Assembly: GCF_002884975.1 (NCBI RefSeq)
Contig: NZ_PJKB01000001.1
Span: forward strand, 434,001-498,000
Length of the DNA: 64,000 nt
Reading direction: 5' to 3'
From: Akkermansia muciniphila
Lineage (GTDB): Bacteria; Verrucomicrobiota; Verrucomicrobiia; Verrucomicrobiales; Akkermansiaceae
A model generated the notes under the pieces. That model saw nothing but the letters and a program-made list of their open reading frames with translations. It did not search any database and was not told where the DNA came from. Positions 19,735-28,928 of the stretch are shown in pieces (the stretch's first letter is position 1; every line of letters begins with the position of its first letter). A program made the position numbers and the translations under genes.

Positions 19735-20939
19735 GCGAGTTCTCCCTACCGGAAAAAAACGCCCGTGACCGTGCGTTTGGCATCGCCTGCTGGACGCTGG
19801 GCGCGCTGGCCTTCATCCTGCTCCTGATGGTGGGCGTCTCCTTCAGCCTGTCCGCCCGTACCGTGGTGGTGGAAAAAGTGGTGGAAATGCCCGTGGCCGT
19901 TGCGGCGGAAGCCGCCCCTCAGGCCCCGTCTGCCGCTATTGAAGACGGGGACCCCGCGGATGTGGCCGCCGTACCGGGAACATCTTCTGAAAAACCCCGT
20001 TCCGTGGAGGAAATGCTCCGGGATGCCGACCTGTCTGATCCGGCCGACGATCCGGACCCCGCCGCCGTGGCGGCTGCCGTGCCGGGAGGGGGGGATGTTT
20101 CCTCCCAGGCCCCCCGGGCGCCGGAGGACCCGGCAGAAGCCATGCCGCCCATGACGGAGGAAGTGGCGGAACTCGTCAAGGCGGCGCGGTATGCCCAGAT
20201 TGACGGAGACCTGAAAGTGGCGGTGGTGAAGCTGGAGCAGGCCATGAGGCTGGAGCCGGACAGCCCGGTGGTGCTTTATTACTACGGCCTCACATATGAA
20301 TGGCTGCGGAATGCGGATAAATCCCGGGAGTTTTTCCTGAAGGTATACACCCAGCGGGAGAAAGCGGGGAAATACTTCGCGCGCGCTGCCCGGCACCTCC
20401 AGGCCGGTTTTTCCAGCCCGGCGGACCTGCGGGGCGATATGTCCTTCGGCACCATTCTGGAATACCGGGACCCGGAATGCCCCGCCGGGGAGCGCGTCAA
20501 GCTGATTGTCCCCATTCTGATGAAGGATGGCCTGAACGTCAGGCCGGAGGACCTGCGCGTCATCGTCCAGTTCTTTGACAAGGTCAACGGAAAAAAAGTG
20601 GAAAAGACGCACGCTCCGGAACCCTCCTCGCGGTGCGTCACGGAACCGGCGGACTGGGCGGACGGGGAGGAAATCATGGAGGTGACCTACTACATGCCCC
20701 CCCTGACGGAGGAGGAGACGATCGCCTACGGAAGCCTCAAATATTACGGGTATACCGCCAAATTATACTACAAGGGTGAACCGATGGATTGCCATGCCTC
20801 CCCCCCTGTGCTATTCTTGCTGGAACAGATGAACCAGAGCTCCCCTTCCGGCATGCCTGAAATTTATGACGGCGGCCTGCTTCCCCCGGTGGAGGCGTCT
20901 CCGGTTTCCGACACCTATGACTCCCTTCTGCCCCCCTGA
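19731..20939 (+). CDS. Membrane-anchored TPR-like protein
   Basis: The 402-residue protein has one N-terminal membrane helix (about residues 18-41), then a long Ala/Pro/Asp-rich linker to about 140. A tetratricopeptide-like pair follows (KAARYAQIDGDLKVAVVKLE and VVLYYYGLTYEWLRNADKSR), then a beta-rich C-terminal domain to the end. It probably presents the TPR domain outside the membrane as a docking module. Its start overlaps the previous stop (ATGA), and its stop shares one base with the next start (TGATG). Specific function is unknown. Confidence 0.8.
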   Translation: MSEFSLPEKNARDRAFGIACWTLGALAFILLLMVGVSFSLSARTVVVEKVVEMPVAVAAEAAPQAPSAAIEDGDPADVAAVPGTSSEKPRSVEEMLRDADLSDPADDPDPAAVAAAVPGGGDVSSQAPRAPEDPAEAMPPMTEEVAELVKAARYAQIDGDLKVAVVKLEQAMRLEPDSPVVLYYYGLTYEWLRNADKSREFFLKVYTQREKAGKYFARAARHLQAGFSSPADLRGDMSFGTILEYRDPECPAGERVKLIVPILMKDGLNVRPEDLRVIVQFFDKVNGKKVEKTHAPEPSSRCVTEPADWADGEEIMEVTYYMPPLTEEETIAYGSLKYYGYTAKLYYKGEPMDCHASPPVLFLLEQMNQSSPSGMPEIYDGGLLPPVEASPVSDTYDSLLPP

Positions 20940-22474
20940 TGCCTGAACTGTCCATGTTTGACCTTCCCCACAACTTTGGAGACTACACGCTGGTGGCGTT
21001 CATCGGCCGCACGCGGGGAGGGATTCTCTACCAGGCCATCCAGCAGGGCATGGACCGTTCCGTGTTCCTGGAACTGCTGGAACCGGACAACGCGGAGGGC
21101 GTGAGCGTGGAGGAATTCCTGATGAAAGCCCGCACGCGGGCGGCTGTCACCGCCCCGGTGCTGGGCACCGTTTATGAGGCCTCCCAGGCCCAGGGGTACT
21201 GGTTCGTCACCAGTGAACAGCTGGGAGGCTCCTCCCTCCAGTGCATGCTGGACCGCGGCCAGGCCCTGTCCATGAAGGACCTGCTGAAAGTGATTGAAAC
21301 GGTCGGCGGCATGTGCGGCAGGTATGAACGCCTGCAAACCGCCTTCAACGTCATGGAGCCGCGCCACATCTTCCTGGATGACAAGTCCGCCGTGCGGCTG
21401 ATGAATACGGCCATGCCCGGTGACTTTCATGAAGAAATATCCCGCGCGCAGATGGAGCGCCTGGGGGCGGACCTGCTGCCCCTGGTGACGCCGGACGTGC
21501 CCGGAACCACCCGCATGCGCACCCTGCTGGAATGGATGCGGGAGGGCCAGAACGGCAAGCCGATGCAGTGGGACCAGGTCATGGAGCTGATTGCCGCGGT
21601 CCGCGAACAACTGGGGCTCTCCCCGCGGGCCACCACCCACCGCTATACCGTTCCCGTGGAACCCCGCGGAAAAACCGGAAAATGGATGCTCTGGGCCGGA
21701 GCGGGCCTGCTGGGCGCGGGAATAGCCGCTGGTGCCGTGCTCCTTTCACTCCCCGGGGAGGAAGTCTCCGGGCCTGCACCGCCTCCGGCGCCGAAACACT
21801 ATCCTGATTTCTCCGCCAGCGACCATACGGAAGTACGCGTGAACCTTCCCGGCGGCGGCGAACTGATCGTGGGAGCCCATGAAATTACCATGGAATCCTA
21901 CCGCCTGTTTCTGGACCAGTGGGCGCGCCTTACTCCGGAGCTGAGGGAGGAATATTCCCATCCGGACCAGCCGGACAAGCAGGCCGCCACCCACGTTCCC
22001 GCAGACTGGGAAGCCATGTGGACGGCGGCCAACACTCCCGGGGGGAAATGGAAGGGCAGGAAAATCACGCCCCGTTCCCCCGTCGTCAACGTCACCTTCT
22101 GGGATGCCTGGGCGTATGCGGGCTGGAAGCCCGTGCCCCCCGGAGAGCCCCGTTACCGCCTGCCCGCGCGCCGGGAATGGATGGCCCTGGGAAGCATGCT
22201 GGAAACGGGTGAAAAAGGGGATAAAACCCTGGTGATTGACCGGTACAGCAATGACTATGATCTAAAAACGGGCGTGTGCGGCATGGCCTCCGGCGTGATG
22301 GAATGGACCTCCTCCATGGAAAAAGACCCCGCGCGCGTGAAGGAACCGCCGGGCCCGGTGGCCTGCGGCGGGGACTGGAAGCACCCCGGCATCACCAACC
22401 GGGTGGAATACCTGCGTTCCCGCGGAGAAAGCCGGGACAACCTGGGCTTCAGAATCGTGCGGGACGTCCGCTGA
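20939..22474 (+). CDS. Pseudokinase-like N-terminal domain fused through a membrane helix to a SUMF1/FGE-type domain
   Basis: The 511-residue protein has three parts. Residues 5-220 resemble a Hanks-type Ser/Thr kinase (GDYTLVAFIGRTRGGILYQA, with an N-lobe like kinases). However, the invariant VALK lysine segment reads VFLELL, the HRD loop reads NVMEPRHIFLDD, and no DFG is visible. One membrane helix follows at about 240-263. The C-terminal half is a formylglycine-generating-enzyme-type fold (HEITMESYRLFL, PVVNVTFWDAWAYAGW, YRLPARREW, GVMEWTSS, NLGFRIVRD). The catalytic cysteine pair of true FGE is not seen. It is likely a signalling or scaffold receptor rather than an enzyme. It is the third gene of the coupled cluster. 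Confidence 0.8.
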   Translation: MPELSMFDLPHNFGDYTLVAFIGRTRGGILYQAIQQGMDRSVFLELLEPDNAEGVSVEEFLMKARTRAAVTAPVLGTVYEASQAQGYWFVTSEQLGGSSLQCMLDRGQALSMKDLLKVIETVGGMCGRYERLQTAFNVMEPRHIFLDDKSAVRLMNTAMPGDFHEEISRAQMERLGADLLPLVTPDVPGTTRMRTLLEWMREGQNGKPMQWDQVMELIAAVREQLGLSPRATTHRYTVPVEPRGKTGKWMLWAGAGLLGAGIAAGAVLLSLPGEEVSGPAPPPAPKHYPDFSASDHTEVRVNLPGGGELIVGAHEITMESYRLFLDQWARLTPELREEYSHPDQPDKQAATHVPADWEAMWTAANTPGGKWKGRKITPRSPVVNVTFWDAWAYAGWKPVPPGEPRYRLPARREWMALGSMLETGEKGDKTLVIDRYSNDYDLKTGVCGMASGVMEWTSSMEKDPARVKEPPGPVACGGDWKHPGITNRVEYLRSRGESRDNLGFRIVRDVR

Positions 22475-23441: not shown

Positions 23442-24479
23442 TCAGGAATCTCCCTGGGGCTTCTTCTCCGGCTGCTGCGCTTTCTCCAAAATGCGCTTTA
23501 CGCTTTCCTGAACCACGCTGATGGGAAGGGCGTAATTCTCCGCCCGGTTCACCCTGGCGATGTTCATGCCGATAAGCTCTCCCTTCAGGTTGAGCAGCGG
23601 GCCGCCCATCAGCGTATACCGGGAAGGGGTGTCATGCTGTAGAACCATGGGGAAATCATCCCGGCGCTTGCTGAAGCCCCCGCTGATCAGGTCATTGGAA
23701 TTCTGGGGCGTATCCTCCCCCAGCGCCTTCCGCCGGGAACCCAGCGTGATGGCGTAGGAAACCTTGTTGCCCTTGCGGTTGACCTTCAGCGTTACCTTCT
23801 CCCCGATCTCCTTCTTTGACAAAATGGGGTAAATGGCTTCCAGCGTGGTGACGGGGGTGCCGTCCACGGCCAGAATCTCATCCCCGTCCATGGCTCCGGC
23901 CCTGGCGGCTGGACCATCCTTGACGACCTCCTGAATGGAGCACGGAGCGGCAAAAATCACGCCCATGTAGGCCGTATCACCGTTCGGGATGGGGCGCTGC
24001 GCCGCACTGAGCGTGCCGAGCTGGGCCCGTCTGGAACTGCGGGTGGTGGAACCGTTGCTGACCACCAGCATGCCCATGTGAGCCTCATTGCTGACGGGGC
24101 CGGGAGCGGCCAGGCCGGAAGCGTCCACCTTCACCACGGCGATGTCCGTGGCCGGATCCGTGCCGATCTCCTTGAAATGGCTGTACTTGGCAGCCCCTAT
24201 CCGGATCACCGGATTCTGGTGGGAGTGGAGTTCGGAAGCCTTGGTGGCTATATAGCCGTCCGGACTCAGGACAATGCCGTAAACCATCACGTCATGGCCG
24301 GAAAAGAAAACGGCGCTCAACTCCTGAAGGCGTTCGCGGACGGGTTCAATAGTCTTCAGAACCGTCTTTCCATTGATGCGCTGTTCAAAATCCAGGCTCC
24401 CGTTATAGCCTTCCGCCACGGCGGAGGGAAACAGGGAACAGGCCACGGGAAGCAGGTATGCGCAGGAGGGGAGTTTCAT
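23442..24479 (-). CDS. Catalytically dead HtrA-like protein with an inserted PDZ domain
   Basis: The 345-residue exported protein (signal peptide of about 22 residues) follows the trypsin/HtrA fold but lacks the triad. The usual His segment (TNNHV in HtrA) reads GYIATKASEL, the Asp strand survives as DPATDIAVVKVD (Asp112), and the GNSGGPL loop reads TLMGGPL with Met in place of the nucleophilic Ser (291). A PDZ domain occupies about residues 170-247 (VVKDGPAARAGAMDGDEIL). It lies before the Ser-loop strand (VLQHDTPSRYTL) rather than after the protease domain, so the protease fold is interrupted. It is encoded 20 bp after an intact protease of the same family, and is probably a regulator, decoy or substrate-binding partner. 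Confidence 0.85.
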   Translation of the reverse strand: MKLPSCAYLLPVACSLFPSAVAEGYNGSLDFEQRINGKTVLKTIEPVRERLQELSAVFFSGHDVMVYGIVLSPDGYIATKASELHSHQNPVIRIGAAKYSHFKEIGTDPATDIAVVKVDASGLAAPGPVSNEAHMGMLVVSNGSTTRSSRRAQLGTLSAAQRPIPNGDTAYMGVIFAAPCSIQEVVKDGPAARAGAMDGDEILAVDGTPVTTLEAIYPILSKKEIGEKVTLKVNRKGNKVSYAITLGSRRKALGEDTPQNSNDLISGGFSKRRDDFPMVLQHDTPSRYTLMGGPLLNLKGELIGMNIARVNRAENYALPISVVQESVKRILEKAQQPEKKPQGDS

Positions 24480-24499
24480 AACCGGCGGGAATAAATGAT

Positions 24500-25249
24500 T
24501 TAACTGTCCTGTTCCGGTGACGGGGGAAGGGGCGCTTTTCCTCCGGTGGGAGGTTCCATCAGGGCGTCGAAATCCTTCATGGGAACGTGGAGGTTATCCT
24601 CCAGGCCGGAACCAACCCGGCTATGAATGCCGATCAACTCTCCGTTCAAGTTGAACAGAGGGCCGCCGGAATCCCCGCGGATCAGCTTGCAATCCGTCTG
24701 GATGACGCCATTCTTAAGGGAAACCACGCGGCCCAGGCGCACCATCGGGCCGCGTTTCTGGTCCAGTCCGCCGCCGTGGCCCAGAGCGAACACCCAGTCT
24801 CCTACACGGGGCAGTTTCTCCGTCCGCTCTACACGGGGAAGGTCTTTGTCCAGCCTGGTGGTGATTTCGGCCAGGCCGGCGTCGGACTCGCTATTCTGCG
24901 CCGTGGTCTTTCCGAGCAGGCGCGTACCGTCCGGCATGATGATCTTGAGCACGGTCCCCTGCTTGTCAACGACGTGGGCCGCTGAAAAAATCAGCCCCTT
25001 CTCCGAGACCAGGATGCCGGAGCCGCTCCCATTATTCACCTCAATGCAGACCAGGGCCGGAAGCACTCTGGGTAGCACCTGCTGAAGCTGGTGTTCAATG
25101 CGCTGGAGATCTTCTACGGACTGTGGCGTGGTGGAAAGGATTCCGGCGCCGTCCGCAGACTGCGCCGGAGCCTGCGGAAAAGGCGCCAGCAGGGCTGTGC
25201 CGCAGAGAATGGCGGAAAAACAGGGTTTCCGGAAGGCCGTATTCATCAT
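24500..25249 (-). CDS. Secreted trypsin-like serine protease (HtrA-type protease domain without PDZ)
   Basis: The 249-residue protein has an N-terminal export signal (about 30 residues, ending APAQ) and a compact trypsin-like domain with the full triad: His92 in SAAHVVD, Asp123 in SESDAGLAEI and Ser194 in RGDSGGPLFN. It lacks a PDZ domain, unlike DegP or HtrA. The gene lies directly upstream of the dead, PDZ-containing relative, which suggests that catalysis and peptide binding have been divided between two periplasmic proteins. Confidence 0.9.
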   Translation of the reverse strand: MMNTAFRKPCFSAILCGTALLAPFPQAPAQSADGAGILSTTPQSVEDLQRIEHQLQQVLPRVLPALVCIEVNNGSGSGILVSEKGLIFSAAHVVDKQGTVLKIIMPDGTRLLGKTTAQNSESDAGLAEITTRLDKDLPRVERTEKLPRVGDWVFALGHGGGLDQKRGPMVRLGRVVSLKNGVIQTDCKLIRGDSGGPLFNLNGELIGIHSRVGSGLEDNLHVPMKDFDALMEPPTGGKAPLPPSPEQDS

Positions 25250-25573: not shown

Positions 25574-25648
25574 GCGGATGTAGCTCAGGGGTAGAGCGCA
25601 ACCTTGCCAAGGTTGATGTCGTGGGTTCGAATCCCATCATCCGCTCCA
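25574..25648 (+). tRNA. tRNA-Gly (anticodon GCC)
   Basis: The cloverleaf is complete: acceptor GCGGATG with CATCCGC, D arm GCTC/GAGC, anticodon stem CAACC/GGTTG with loop TTGCCAA (anticodon GCC), T arm GTGGG TTCGAAT CCCAT, discriminator T, and an encoded CCA. The AT-rich island begins about 30-120 bp downstream, so the gene could be its attachment site. I did not find a second copy of its 3' end within the following 5 kb. Confidence 0.97.
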
Positions 25649-25771
25649 TTTTTCCAAGAGAAGTGGTTGTGAGTCTCCATTTTAGAATGAAAGAGGCCCA
25701 CTCAAGAATAGACTGGATTTTTATGGTCGTGAAGAGGCTTGGCAATTTCATTCTTCCTCATTCTTCCTCCG

Positions 25772-28072
25772 CTAACTGGTCGCTAAGATAAGTTTTTCAA
25801 GCTTTTGTAAGAATTCATATTCAGTTGTAGTTACACTATAACTAGTGAAATCTTGTTTTGAAATTTTATCTAGTTCCTTTATCCATTCTGTTTTTTTATC
25901 TTTGCCGCCGATTAGCTTTTCATCTCCAGGTATTGTACATATTTTTTCAAATAGGGAACTCCAATTATCTCCGTAAAGTGCAATTTTCCGATAATCTCCA
26001 ATTTGGAGACAATTCCAAGGGTCAGTTTTAGGTTCGTCAGAAGCTTTCTGATAATCAATATCGGTAGCTCTTTTATGTAAATCTGTAAAAACAGATTTAG
26101 GTATACCTAGTTTTAACCAATCATTTGGGCCATATTTGTTCATAAGAGCTTCTTTAAATGTAAGTGTCATCCATTCTCTTATTTCATGTATAATATCCAG
26201 AGATTGTACATTGTATGTTTTGGATTGATCTTTCCAGTATTCATCCAATCCATCAACAATAAAGTCTTCTCTTGTATTACGAATTGCTCTTTGTAGTATT
26301 CTCCAATATTTAGTTCGACCTCCTGTACCGTAACATCCTTTTAATTCTAATTTTTCTTCAGGAGTAAGCCCCTGCAAAAAATGCAATAATGGATCTAGGT
26401 AGTAATCAACGGACTCTAGAAATGTAGACATATTGACAGATTTAGGATCTAGCTTCTCTTTTGTAATAATAGTATCTGCAATGTCATTAAAAATACGGAG
26501 TAAACTAATAATCCCTGCATTGATTGTAAGATAACCGGCATTGTCTTTGCCTTGGTTCCATTCTGTAGTCAAATTTTTCTGAACACGCCTAAAACAACCT
26601 ACTAAAAAAGAGTATAATAATTTAGCTGTTTCATCATTATCTCCTAAATCAAAAGTCCCATGTTTTCGAAGTGTTTGGTCTGTGTATATATTAAAAAAAT
26701 TACTAGAATCTAATCCTATTTTTATGGAATCAATACTAATGCATTTTGTCGCTGTGCTGGTTGATTCTCCCACCAAAATACGATCATATAGAGGAGAATC
26801 TTTTGTCTCTCCTAATTTTTGCGCAAGGTGAAGTTTTAAAGCCACTACCTGATTTGTTTTATTTTCATCAGTCCAAAGTAGATCAGAATTTAATGTATTT
26901 CTTAAATTTTTTGAAACAGATTTCTGATTTTCATTAATTTGCATGAATAACTTTACTTGATCTTTACGACTCAGGTTTACAAATAAAACTACGGGTATAG
27001 TATTTGATTTGCTGTATTTGGTGTCTGTATAACCATACAAACGATGCTGTCCATCAATAATATAAGCACTTCCATATTTTTTAGGAAGGTGCAGAATGCC
27101 GATTTTGGACTCTGTGTCTTCTACCTGAGTAGTAGCTTGATCAAATTGTAGGGCTCTCCGTGTATCAATATTGACAACGATAGAGTTAGGGAAGAAGCCG
27201 CCTTCATCAATAAATTGTCGAATTGACTGTAAGCGACTCTTTTTAATAAGGCGCTGATAAGTAGGCATCATTTCTGCATTTGCTTTACTTCGATGTAGAA
27301 CATAACTAATTTTTAATAATTTTTCAGGTTCTATTGAGAAGGAATAATATTTATACCCACCCATTTTCCCAGATATAGCCGGTATTTTGTTCGCTATTCC
27401 AGGTATGTCGCTACTACGAAATATATTTGCTAATAATTGGAATTTAGATGATGATCCAAGATGTTTTGCTAATTCCCTATAATATTCTAATACATCTTCA
27501 TCAAAATGTAGGATATTAAATTCTTTCAATCTATCTTGATCATTTTTTGATAAATAGTAGTTATTAGTTGCTAAAATCCATTTGAATTTATGATTATTTA
27601 GTTTTAAATTCTTTTTAAGATTAGTTATTATTCCTTTTTGAAATCCACTGATAGCCTCAATGTCTTTTTTGAAATTGCCACATTTCGGACCTTCTGGTGC
27701 TGATTTACATTCAATCAACAATACGCATTCATCATCTACTGCGAATACGTCAATTTGTTTGGTTAATTTAGCATCTGATTTGTGATAAGGAAGATCAAAA
27801 TTTCTATCTTTATTCATGTAATGAAACCCCATATCGGCAAAAATATTCCAGACTTGATCTTCAAATGCCATGTCTTGAGATTTTTTTTTGATTATACGGG
27901 CACTTTGTTTATAGTACTTACATACAGACCATCCTTTTTTTTCACGTTCGGAGATTTCAGAAAGGGGGATGCTTTCACTAAGATAATCGCTTCGGCGTCT
28001 TTTCTTTTGTGCTCGCAATTCATGGCCTGTTACAAGTTTGTTTTGGAGACAATTCTCTTCTTCTCTTTTCAT
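25772..28072 (-). CDS. PD-(D/E)XK nuclease-like domain fused to a DGQHR (DndB-like) domain
   Basis: The 766-residue protein starts with a basic stretch. A restriction-endonuclease-like domain follows at about residues 65-200: AFEDQVWNIFADMGF helix, then Asp108 in KQIDVFAV and Glu121-x-Lys123 in LLIECKSA, which fits a PD-(D/E)XK core of the Mrr or type III/IV kind. The middle carries the DGQHR motif (about 340-344, AYIIDGQHRLYGYTD), followed by an LFMQINENQKSV segment, diagnostic of DGQHR/DndB-family proteins in the ParB/sulfiredoxin-like superfamily. A helical C-terminal region of about 350 residues is unassigned. ATG 28072 lies 4 bp after the methylase stop; a TTG at 28087 is an alternative start. 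Likely role: the nuclease or NTP-dependent effector of a modification-linked restriction system. Confidence 0.82.
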   Translation of the reverse strand: MKREEENCLQNKLVTGHELRAQKKRRRSDYLSESIPLSEISEREKKGWSVCKYYKQSARIIKKKSQDMAFEDQVWNIFADMGFHYMNKDRNFDLPYHKSDAKLTKQIDVFAVDDECVLLIECKSAPEGPKCGNFKKDIEAISGFQKGIITNLKKNLKLNNHKFKWILATNNYYLSKNDQDRLKEFNILHFDEDVLEYYRELAKHLGSSSKFQLLANIFRSSDIPGIANKIPAISGKMGGYKYYSFSIEPEKLLKISYVLHRSKANAEMMPTYQRLIKKSRLQSIRQFIDEGGFFPNSIVVNIDTRRALQFDQATTQVEDTESKIGILHLPKKYGSAYIIDGQHRLYGYTDTKYSKSNTIPVVLFVNLSRKDQVKLFMQINENQKSVSKNLRNTLNSDLLWTDENKTNQVVALKLHLAQKLGETKDSPLYDRILVGESTSTATKCISIDSIKIGLDSSNFFNIYTDQTLRKHGTFDLGDNDETAKLLYSFLVGCFRRVQKNLTTEWNQGKDNAGYLTINAGIISLLRIFNDIADTIITKEKLDPKSVNMSTFLESVDYYLDPLLHFLQGLTPEEKLELKGCYGTGGRTKYWRILQRAIRNTREDFIVDGLDEYWKDQSKTYNVQSLDIIHEIREWMTLTFKEALMNKYGPNDWLKLGIPKSVFTDLHKRATDIDYQKASDEPKTDPWNCLQIGDYRKIALYGDNWSSLFEKICTIPGDEKLIGGKDKKTEWIKELDKISKQDFTSYSVTTTEYEFLQKLEKLILATS

Positions 28073-28076
28073 AATT

Positions 28077-28928
28077 TTATCTAACAATATTAGTAAATAA
28101 GAATTCGTCTACATGTCCCCGTTGAGCGTTTTTTCCACCAAGTAAATTAGCTCGGTTGACTTGAATTAATAAATCGCCTTTGTTAAATATTTCAGATATT
28201 TTACTGTGGGCGGCATTAGTTAACACGTAGAAAGCTTTCTTTAATTTAATTTTATCAATTAAATTACTAAGACGATATTGGTCTTCTAATGAGAAAATCT
28301 TTTGATTGTATTTAATAAATCCATTATTATTGTGTGAGATCGTATACGGAGGATCTATGAAAATAAGATCTCCTTTTTCAATGCGAGAAAGTGTTGACTC
28401 GAAATCACAACACATTAATTCAGCTCCTTGTAATTTAGCGCTGGCTTTTCGTAGTACATTTTCATTCAAAACAATTTTATTCCTATACCCATAAGGGACA
28501 TTATATTTTCCTTTAAGATTGACACGATATATACCATTAAATGACGTTTGATTTAGGTATATAAACCGTGCAGATTTTTCTACCAGAGAGGGCGGAGATG
28601 AATCGCGTAAATTATAATAAAAATCTTTTTCATTAGGATATTTCCTTAATAAGGAAATTATTTCATCAACATTATCACGTATGCTGAGATAAGTTTCAAT
28701 AAGCTCTCGGTTGGAATCAGATAAAAATATGCGACCATGGTGGGTGAGAGAAAAAAATACGGAACCTCCTCCTAAGAAGGGTTCATGATAGTTGACAAAT
28801 GAACATTCGCTCAAAAGAGGGCGTAGATACTTGACTATCCAGCTTTTCCCTCCAGCCCAACGTAGAAAAGGTTTTGCAACATTTTCTTCAGGAAAATGAT
28901 CCTTTGGTTGAGATTGGTGGATTTTCAT
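28077..28928 (-). CDS. Dam-type DNA adenine-N6 methyltransferase (D12 class)
   Basis: The 283-residue enzyme transfers a methyl group from S-adenosylmethionine to adenine in DNA. It has the D12-class motifs: PFLRWAGGK (residues 20-28) for cofactor binding, HEPFLGGGSVFF, and the catalytic DPPY at 192-195. The length matches the Dam/DpnM class. The target could be GATC, but specificity cannot be read from sequence. It is the first gene of the island operon, 4 bp before the nuclease-DGQHR gene, and is preceded by a good sigma-70-like promoter. Strong AT bias supports recent transfer. Confidence 0.93.
   Translation of the reverse strand: MKIHQSQPKDHFPEENVAKPFLRWAGGKSWIVKYLRPLLSECSFVNYHEPFLGGGSVFFSLTHHGRIFLSDSNRELIETYLSIRDNVDEIISLLRKYPNEKDFYYNLRDSSPPSLVEKSARFIYLNQTSFNGIYRVNLKGKYNVPYGYRNKIVLNENVLRKASAKLQGAELMCCDFESTLSRIEKGDLIFIDPPYTISHNNNGFIKYNQKIFSLEDQYRLSNLIDKIKLKKAFYVLTNAAHSKISEIFNKGDLLIQVNRANLLGGKNAQRGHVDEFLFTNIVR

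Follow-up and report, generated by a model that had tools for sequence, protein, structure and literature searches.

HtrA proteases of the DegS, DegP and DegQ types are single proteins in which the protease domain is followed by the PDZ. Their allostery is hard to dissect because sensing and cutting are combined in each protomer of a homotrimer. In DegS and DegP, loop L3 takes the signal from the PDZ, after which an arginine (respectively Arg178 and Arg187) touches loop LD of the adjacent subunit. Loop L3 corresponds to residues 176-189 of DegS (PMC11642142), and a cluster including Arg178 and Gln191 joins the L3 of one subunit to the LD of the next (PMC11642142; PMC5666011); Arg302 of HtrA1 has been named alongside the residues of this activation cluster (PMC5666011). 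In plants, Deg5 is an accepted exception among HtrA proteins in having no PDZ, and Deg8 has one at its C-terminus (PD-PDZ). Joint action of Deg5 and Deg8 in the thylakoid lumen has been reported; neither of them is known to be a pseudoprotease. Active and inactive HtrA protease domains share a single chain in Deg7 and in the fungal Nma111. In the plant AtDeg7, which is ordered PD-PDZ-PDZ-PDia-PDZ-PDZ, the inactive protease domain mediates trimerisation (PMC3473262).

Two proteins without catalysis of their own are also relevant here. MamO of magnetotactic bacteria has a dead trypsin/HtrA-like domain and promotes proteolysis by MamE, an active HtrA encoded in the same cluster, without requiring its own triad (PMC4794232). 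Its C-terminal TauE domain is needed for this activation, the protease domain alone being insufficient, and it has a separate function in metal binding; the same study detected no contact with MamE and mentions no PDZ (PMC4794232). PflC from Campylobacter jejuni is an HtrA-derived periplasmic protein that lacks the triad and has the usual protease-PDZ-PDZ order, but it is a scaffold of the flagellar disk and not the partner of a protease (PMC12222027). In the open-access papers searched, no account was found of an HtrA-type protein with a PDZ in L3 or of the gene pair studied here. If one protomer of a natural pair is dead but carries a PDZ, the roles that homotrimers combine would be separated, and the trans-activation from L3 to LD would become testable without engineered mixed trimers. 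Akkermansia, a prominent gut commensal, has two copies of the pair per genome, and annotation could mistake it for two unrelated "trypsin-like" proteins.

The window (the whole stretch of 64,000 nucleotides that was analysed) belongs to a 2.9 Mb Akkermansia genome. The nearest named records are strains of A. muciniphila, in which P0001 is 96% identical. The two genes lie in tandem, P0001 starting 20 bp downstream of P0002 (Table 1). The upstream product, P0002, has the His-Asp-Ser triad of the HtrA/DegP family (peptidase S1C) in a trypsin-like domain that is complete in Pfam (Trypsin_2, 76-208), and no PDZ was found in it by Pfam, at the C-terminus typical of the family or elsewhere. Its AlphaFold model (pLDDT 77, about 90 in the core) has HTRA1, DegP and PDZ-deleted DegS among its best Foldseek matches, with E-values of about 1e-14 to 1e-13. 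P0002 matches DegS/DegP/DegQ in both profile and fold. The original prediction of a full triad (H92, D123, S194) without a PDZ is thus borne out by Pfam and by the alignment to the catalytic residues. In P0001 the residue alignment likewise agrees with what had been read from the sequence: the catalytic His is missing (Ser82), the Asp is kept (Asp112) and Met291 stands in place of the Ser.

Table 1. Features of the protease pair, with positions in the window.
Feature	Position	Strand	Remarks
P0001	23442..24479	-	345 aa; dead HtrA-like protein; signal-like sequence at N-terminus, PDZ internal
P0001 residues 57-162, first part of protease fold	23994..24311	-	Trypsin_2 68-169; DegP-like chain 94-201
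P0001 Ser82 codon, catalytic His position, TKASE motif	24234..24236	-	Ser 119/121, His 0/121
P0001 Asp112 codon, catalytic Asp position, kept	24144..24146	-	Asp in 119/121 relatives
P0001 Arg162 codon, matching DegS Arg178 in loop L3	23994..23996	-	from alignment; Arg 117/121
P0001 residues 170-249, PDZ, placed at loop L3	23733..23972	-	Pfam PDZ_2 182-246; PDZ model 170-249
P0001 residues 276-335, rest of protease fold with Ser-strand and C-terminal helix	23475..23654	-	DegP-like chain 206-264; dN/dS 0-0.11
P0001 Met291 codon, catalytic Ser position	23607..23609	-	mostly Val/Met/Cys/Ile/Thr/Ala in 121; Ser in one
P0002	24500..25249	-	249 aa; active HtrA-type protease, signal-like sequence at N-terminus, without PDZ
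P0002 His92 codon, catalytic	24974..24976	-	aligned with DegS H96
P0002 Asp123 codon, catalytic	24881..24883	-	aligned with DegS D126
P0002 Ser194 codon, catalytic	24668..24670	-	aligned with DegS S201

The domain order of P0001 was studied by comparing a profile of 31 of its relatives with solved PDB chains. The DegP-like chain 22kg is matched in permuted order: profile positions 57-164 correspond to residues 94-201 of the chain, and 277-330 to 206-264, while the PDZ between them (175-265) corresponds to PDZ1 of 22kg (291-380). The two protease segments are 4 residues apart in 22kg and about 110 in the profile, and the Ser-strand of P0001 (QHDTPSRYTLMGGPLLNLKGELIGMN) comes after the PDZ. Such an order was absent from the best stretch of all 60 solved chains listed. 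When the PDZ is excised, 54 dead proteins align with canonical HtrA over 167 columns, unbroken across the L3 junction (probability 99.9, E = 2e-31), and Arg162, Phe276 and Gln281 of P0001 map to DegS Arg178, residue 186 and Gln191. It follows from this mapping that the PDZ of P0001 takes the place of most of L3. Since AlphaFold, run on P0001 with six close orthologues, returned a mean pLDDT of only 32.6 and the model was not used, the position of the PDZ between the two halves of the trypsin-like domain, at the L3 sensor loop, is deduced from sequence profiles. A mixed set including the partners and viral trypsin-like proteins was also aligned with MAFFT, but the second-barrel strands were misplaced (mostly 30-165 columns) under all the settings tried, and this set was not folded. 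The permuted profile matches uphold the earlier proposal that the PDZ precedes the Ser-loop strand, with limits of 170-249 in the PDZ model against the 170-247 first suggested. The insertion site is more specific than first stated, namely loop L3, just after the equivalent of Arg178.

P0001 shares its fold, the L3 arginine and the activation-cluster glutamine with DegS/DegP/DegQ, but differs from them by the absence of the triad and the permuted position of the PDZ, which lies between profile positions 164 and 277. Because it has neither the triad nor the protease-then-PDZ order, while the PDZ-excised alignment supports common descent of the protease fold, P0001 is an HtrA-derived pseudoprotease and not an HtrA protease. 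Its best NCBIfam DegP/DegS score, 83 bits (TIGR02037), falls short of the cut-off of 416, and neither P0001 (20.7 bits) nor P0002 (25.7 bits) reaches the MamO cut-off of 800.

A relative of P0001 is present in 163 of 195 Akkermansiaceae genomes, and a census gathered 121 distinct internal-PDZ relatives, which come from related genomes and do not represent independent events. The catalytic His is found in none of the 121 and is replaced by Ser in 119; a Ser occupies the catalytic Ser site in a single sequence, which also lacks the His. Relatives with an intact triad, which would have suggested local degradation, were looked for and amount to 0/121. Each of Lys80, Ser82 and Asp112 is conserved in 119 sequences, Arg162 in 117, Arg312 in 116 and Gln281 in 109, and the PDZ and its internal position are kept across the whole dead family as sampled. 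The 41 dead sequences included in the phylogeny form one clade (support 100). With the PDZ removed, dead and active proteins each make up a fully supported clade, apart from the DegP/Q/S types. The dN/dS values of P0001 against five orthologues (0.09-0.21) resemble those of the active partner (0.07-0.18) and are lowest in the pseudo-Ser strand (0-0.11), showing purifying selection on the dead gene. That two triad residues are lost might by itself suggest that P0001 is a decaying HtrA copy. Nevertheless, the triad is lost in all 121 relatives, which span three families, and the single clade and low dN/dS make local degradation so implausible that it was rejected. Judging from these comparisons, the arrangement is old and conserved.

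The dead family is tightly linked to an active one. The active partner lies directly upstream, on the same strand, in 106 of the 121 cases. Nine others are active-dead fusions, one is a fusion in the reverse, dead-active order (L062), three are dead genes adjoining an active-dead fusion and two have no neighbouring partner; of these two, L109 stops at a contig end and G404 has a partner on another contig. The H-D-S triad is present in 119/119 partner assignments, and all 116 aligned active partners have His at the position of H92. The fusions are supported by Pfam domain matches and carry one or two PDZs, one of them internal (for instance L027, L061, L065, L067 and L076). They recall the coexistence of active and inactive domains in Deg7, but the dead module of the P0001 family has its PDZ inside the protease fold; moreover, the proteins of the window are encoded by separate genes and not by a Deg7-type chain. 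Fused and separate states require at least five changes on either tree, and the reverse-order fusion together with this repeated fusion argues for a physical association. Three genomes from a single genus encode, immediately upstream of an active-dead fusion, a second and larger dead protein of about 520-560 aa with an internal PDZ (L070 3-1559, L071 169-1842 and L072 3-1577), so that one active module is accompanied by two dead ones at these loci.

Co-occurrence in the phylum had been suggested as a check. The dead-family profile matches 35 of 335 Verrucomicrobiota genomes, all in families f1, f2 and f40, and the same 35/335 stand out with the active-family profile at E <= 1e-55; the next active matches, at 1e-51 or weaker, resemble canonical DegQ proteins. 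No full-length P0001 relative was found in the viral contigs and plasmids searched. Within the genus Akkermansia, at least one pair is present in 15 of 76 genomes and neither member in the other 61. In these 61 genomes (e.g. G002, G063 and G078; nearly all 1.7-2.8 Mb in size) both pairs are missing entirely, and, with a single exception, the active HtrA query finds no strong match in them; periplasmic HtrA proteases seem to be reduced in that subgroup. The dead and active trees correspond to one another (r = 0.77; highest value on shuffling, 0.28). In the nine genomes with at least two pairs, swapping partners within genomes destroys the match (observed 0.86, mean 0.21, 2/2000 as high), which indicates that the pair was duplicated as a unit.

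A second tandem pair is encoded in the same genome (about C1:1390000-1392200). Its active member, a 350-aa HtrA with the triad and a C-terminal PDZ, overlaps by 4 bp with a 390-aa dead protein with an internal PDZ. About 100 active relatives also have their own C-terminal PDZ, and no PDZ was detected on the active side only in the first-pair partners of the genus Akkermansia and in two fusions of family f40. Since the PDZ is so common among the other active partners, its lack in P0002 looks like a derived loss. These observations separate two parts of the original prediction. That the genes form a conserved functional pair whose second member is not decaying agrees with the 0/121 intact triads, but a division of catalysis and substrate recognition between the two proteins does not hold as written, because the active partner has a PDZ of its own in the second pair and in most relatives.

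We consider it somewhat probable (about 0.55) that the pair makes up a heteromeric, two-component HtrA, in which P0002 would be the catalytic subunit and P0001 an obligatory dead subunit that binds it and regulates or assembles it. Both proteins, which begin with signal-like sequences, would be exported; a peptide bound to the internal PDZ could alter the contact between the dead and active subunits, and the altered contact may in turn gate or target the proteolysis of envelope proteins. The obligate pairing, the repeated and once reversed fusions, the presence of both families in the same genomes and the partner-swap result all point in this direction, although the mirroring of trees from adjacent genes partly reflects co-inheritance. 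The retention of Arg162 and Gln281, the counterparts of DegS Arg178 and Gln191, is most easily understood as an action on the active neighbour, since P0001 itself lacks an active site that the cluster could align; yet it could also be purely structural. MamO and the inactive domain of Deg7 provide precedents. Nevertheless, MamO is no proof of subunit contact, given the need for TauE and the lack of detected contact with MamE. P0001 differs from it by its internal PDZ and by belonging to a family fused to its partner in several lineages, and its link to P0002 is a genetic pairing. The complex is inferred from such patterns and not from a model of P0001. Fixed 1:1 fusions misfit a simple mixed trimer and call for an even-numbered assembly or for stacked trimers, which, by analogy with Deg7, would fit better than a mixed trimer. 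An attractive but more tentative proposal is that the PDZ in L3 wires ligand binding to the Arg178 equivalent, which would reach the LD loop (157-171) of P0002 as the active neighbour; in that case sensing and catalysis would sit on different protomers and allostery would operate only in trans. In addition, the conserved Lys80-Ser82-Asp112 pseudo-site may have gained a binding function.

Other roles for P0001 have to be weighed against this two-component HtrA. According to the original prediction, its PDZ would capture C-termini and hand them to a PDZ-free protease whose catalysis is unaltered. Such an adaptor would suit the first Akkermansia pair, where only the dead partner has a PDZ, and the conserved PDZ fold with its binding-loop glycine (G173 in 117/121). 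However, most active partners have their own PDZ, and a simple adaptor would need neither a whole protease fold nor a conserved L3 arginine, which makes this explanation unlikely. Alternatively, the dead module could only oligomerise the enzyme, as a trimerisation module like that of Deg7, the position of the PDZ being incidental. The recurrent origin of active-dead fusions could be explained in this way, but the PDZs of Deg7 come after the protease domains, and the retention of the PDZ and its position throughout the sampled family goes beyond the needs of a pure scaffold; we regard this as improbable. Finally, P0001 could be co-transcribed without being a protease subunit: it might be a chaperone or a binding protein, or its active site might have been rebuilt. 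Both MamO and PflC illustrate how a dead protease fold may acquire a separate function, and the pseudo-active site (Lys80, Ser82 and Asp112) is itself conserved. Yet a separate function would hardly account for the obligate pairing, the joint losses and the fusions, and seems distinctly improbable as a full explanation.

Two neighbours of the pair deserve mention. On one side (20939-22474), a gene that is syntenic with the pair in 5/5 Akkermansia loci encodes a protein of 511 aa whose N-terminal part weakly resembles Ser/Thr kinases and which also has a transmembrane segment and a domain of the FGE-sulfatase-like kind; neither an HRD nor a DFG motif is recognisable in it, and it is probably a pseudokinase fusion. 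On the other side, an AT-rich stretch (25574-28928; about 32% GC against 60% around it) lies beside a tRNA-Gly(gcc). Its genes code for an adenine methyltransferase of the Dam family and for a DpdB/DndB-like protein of 771 aa with a DGQHR domain. The five related Akkermansia loci keep the tRNA and other flanking genes but lack this stretch, which is probably a small island for defence or modification that was inserted near the tRNA.
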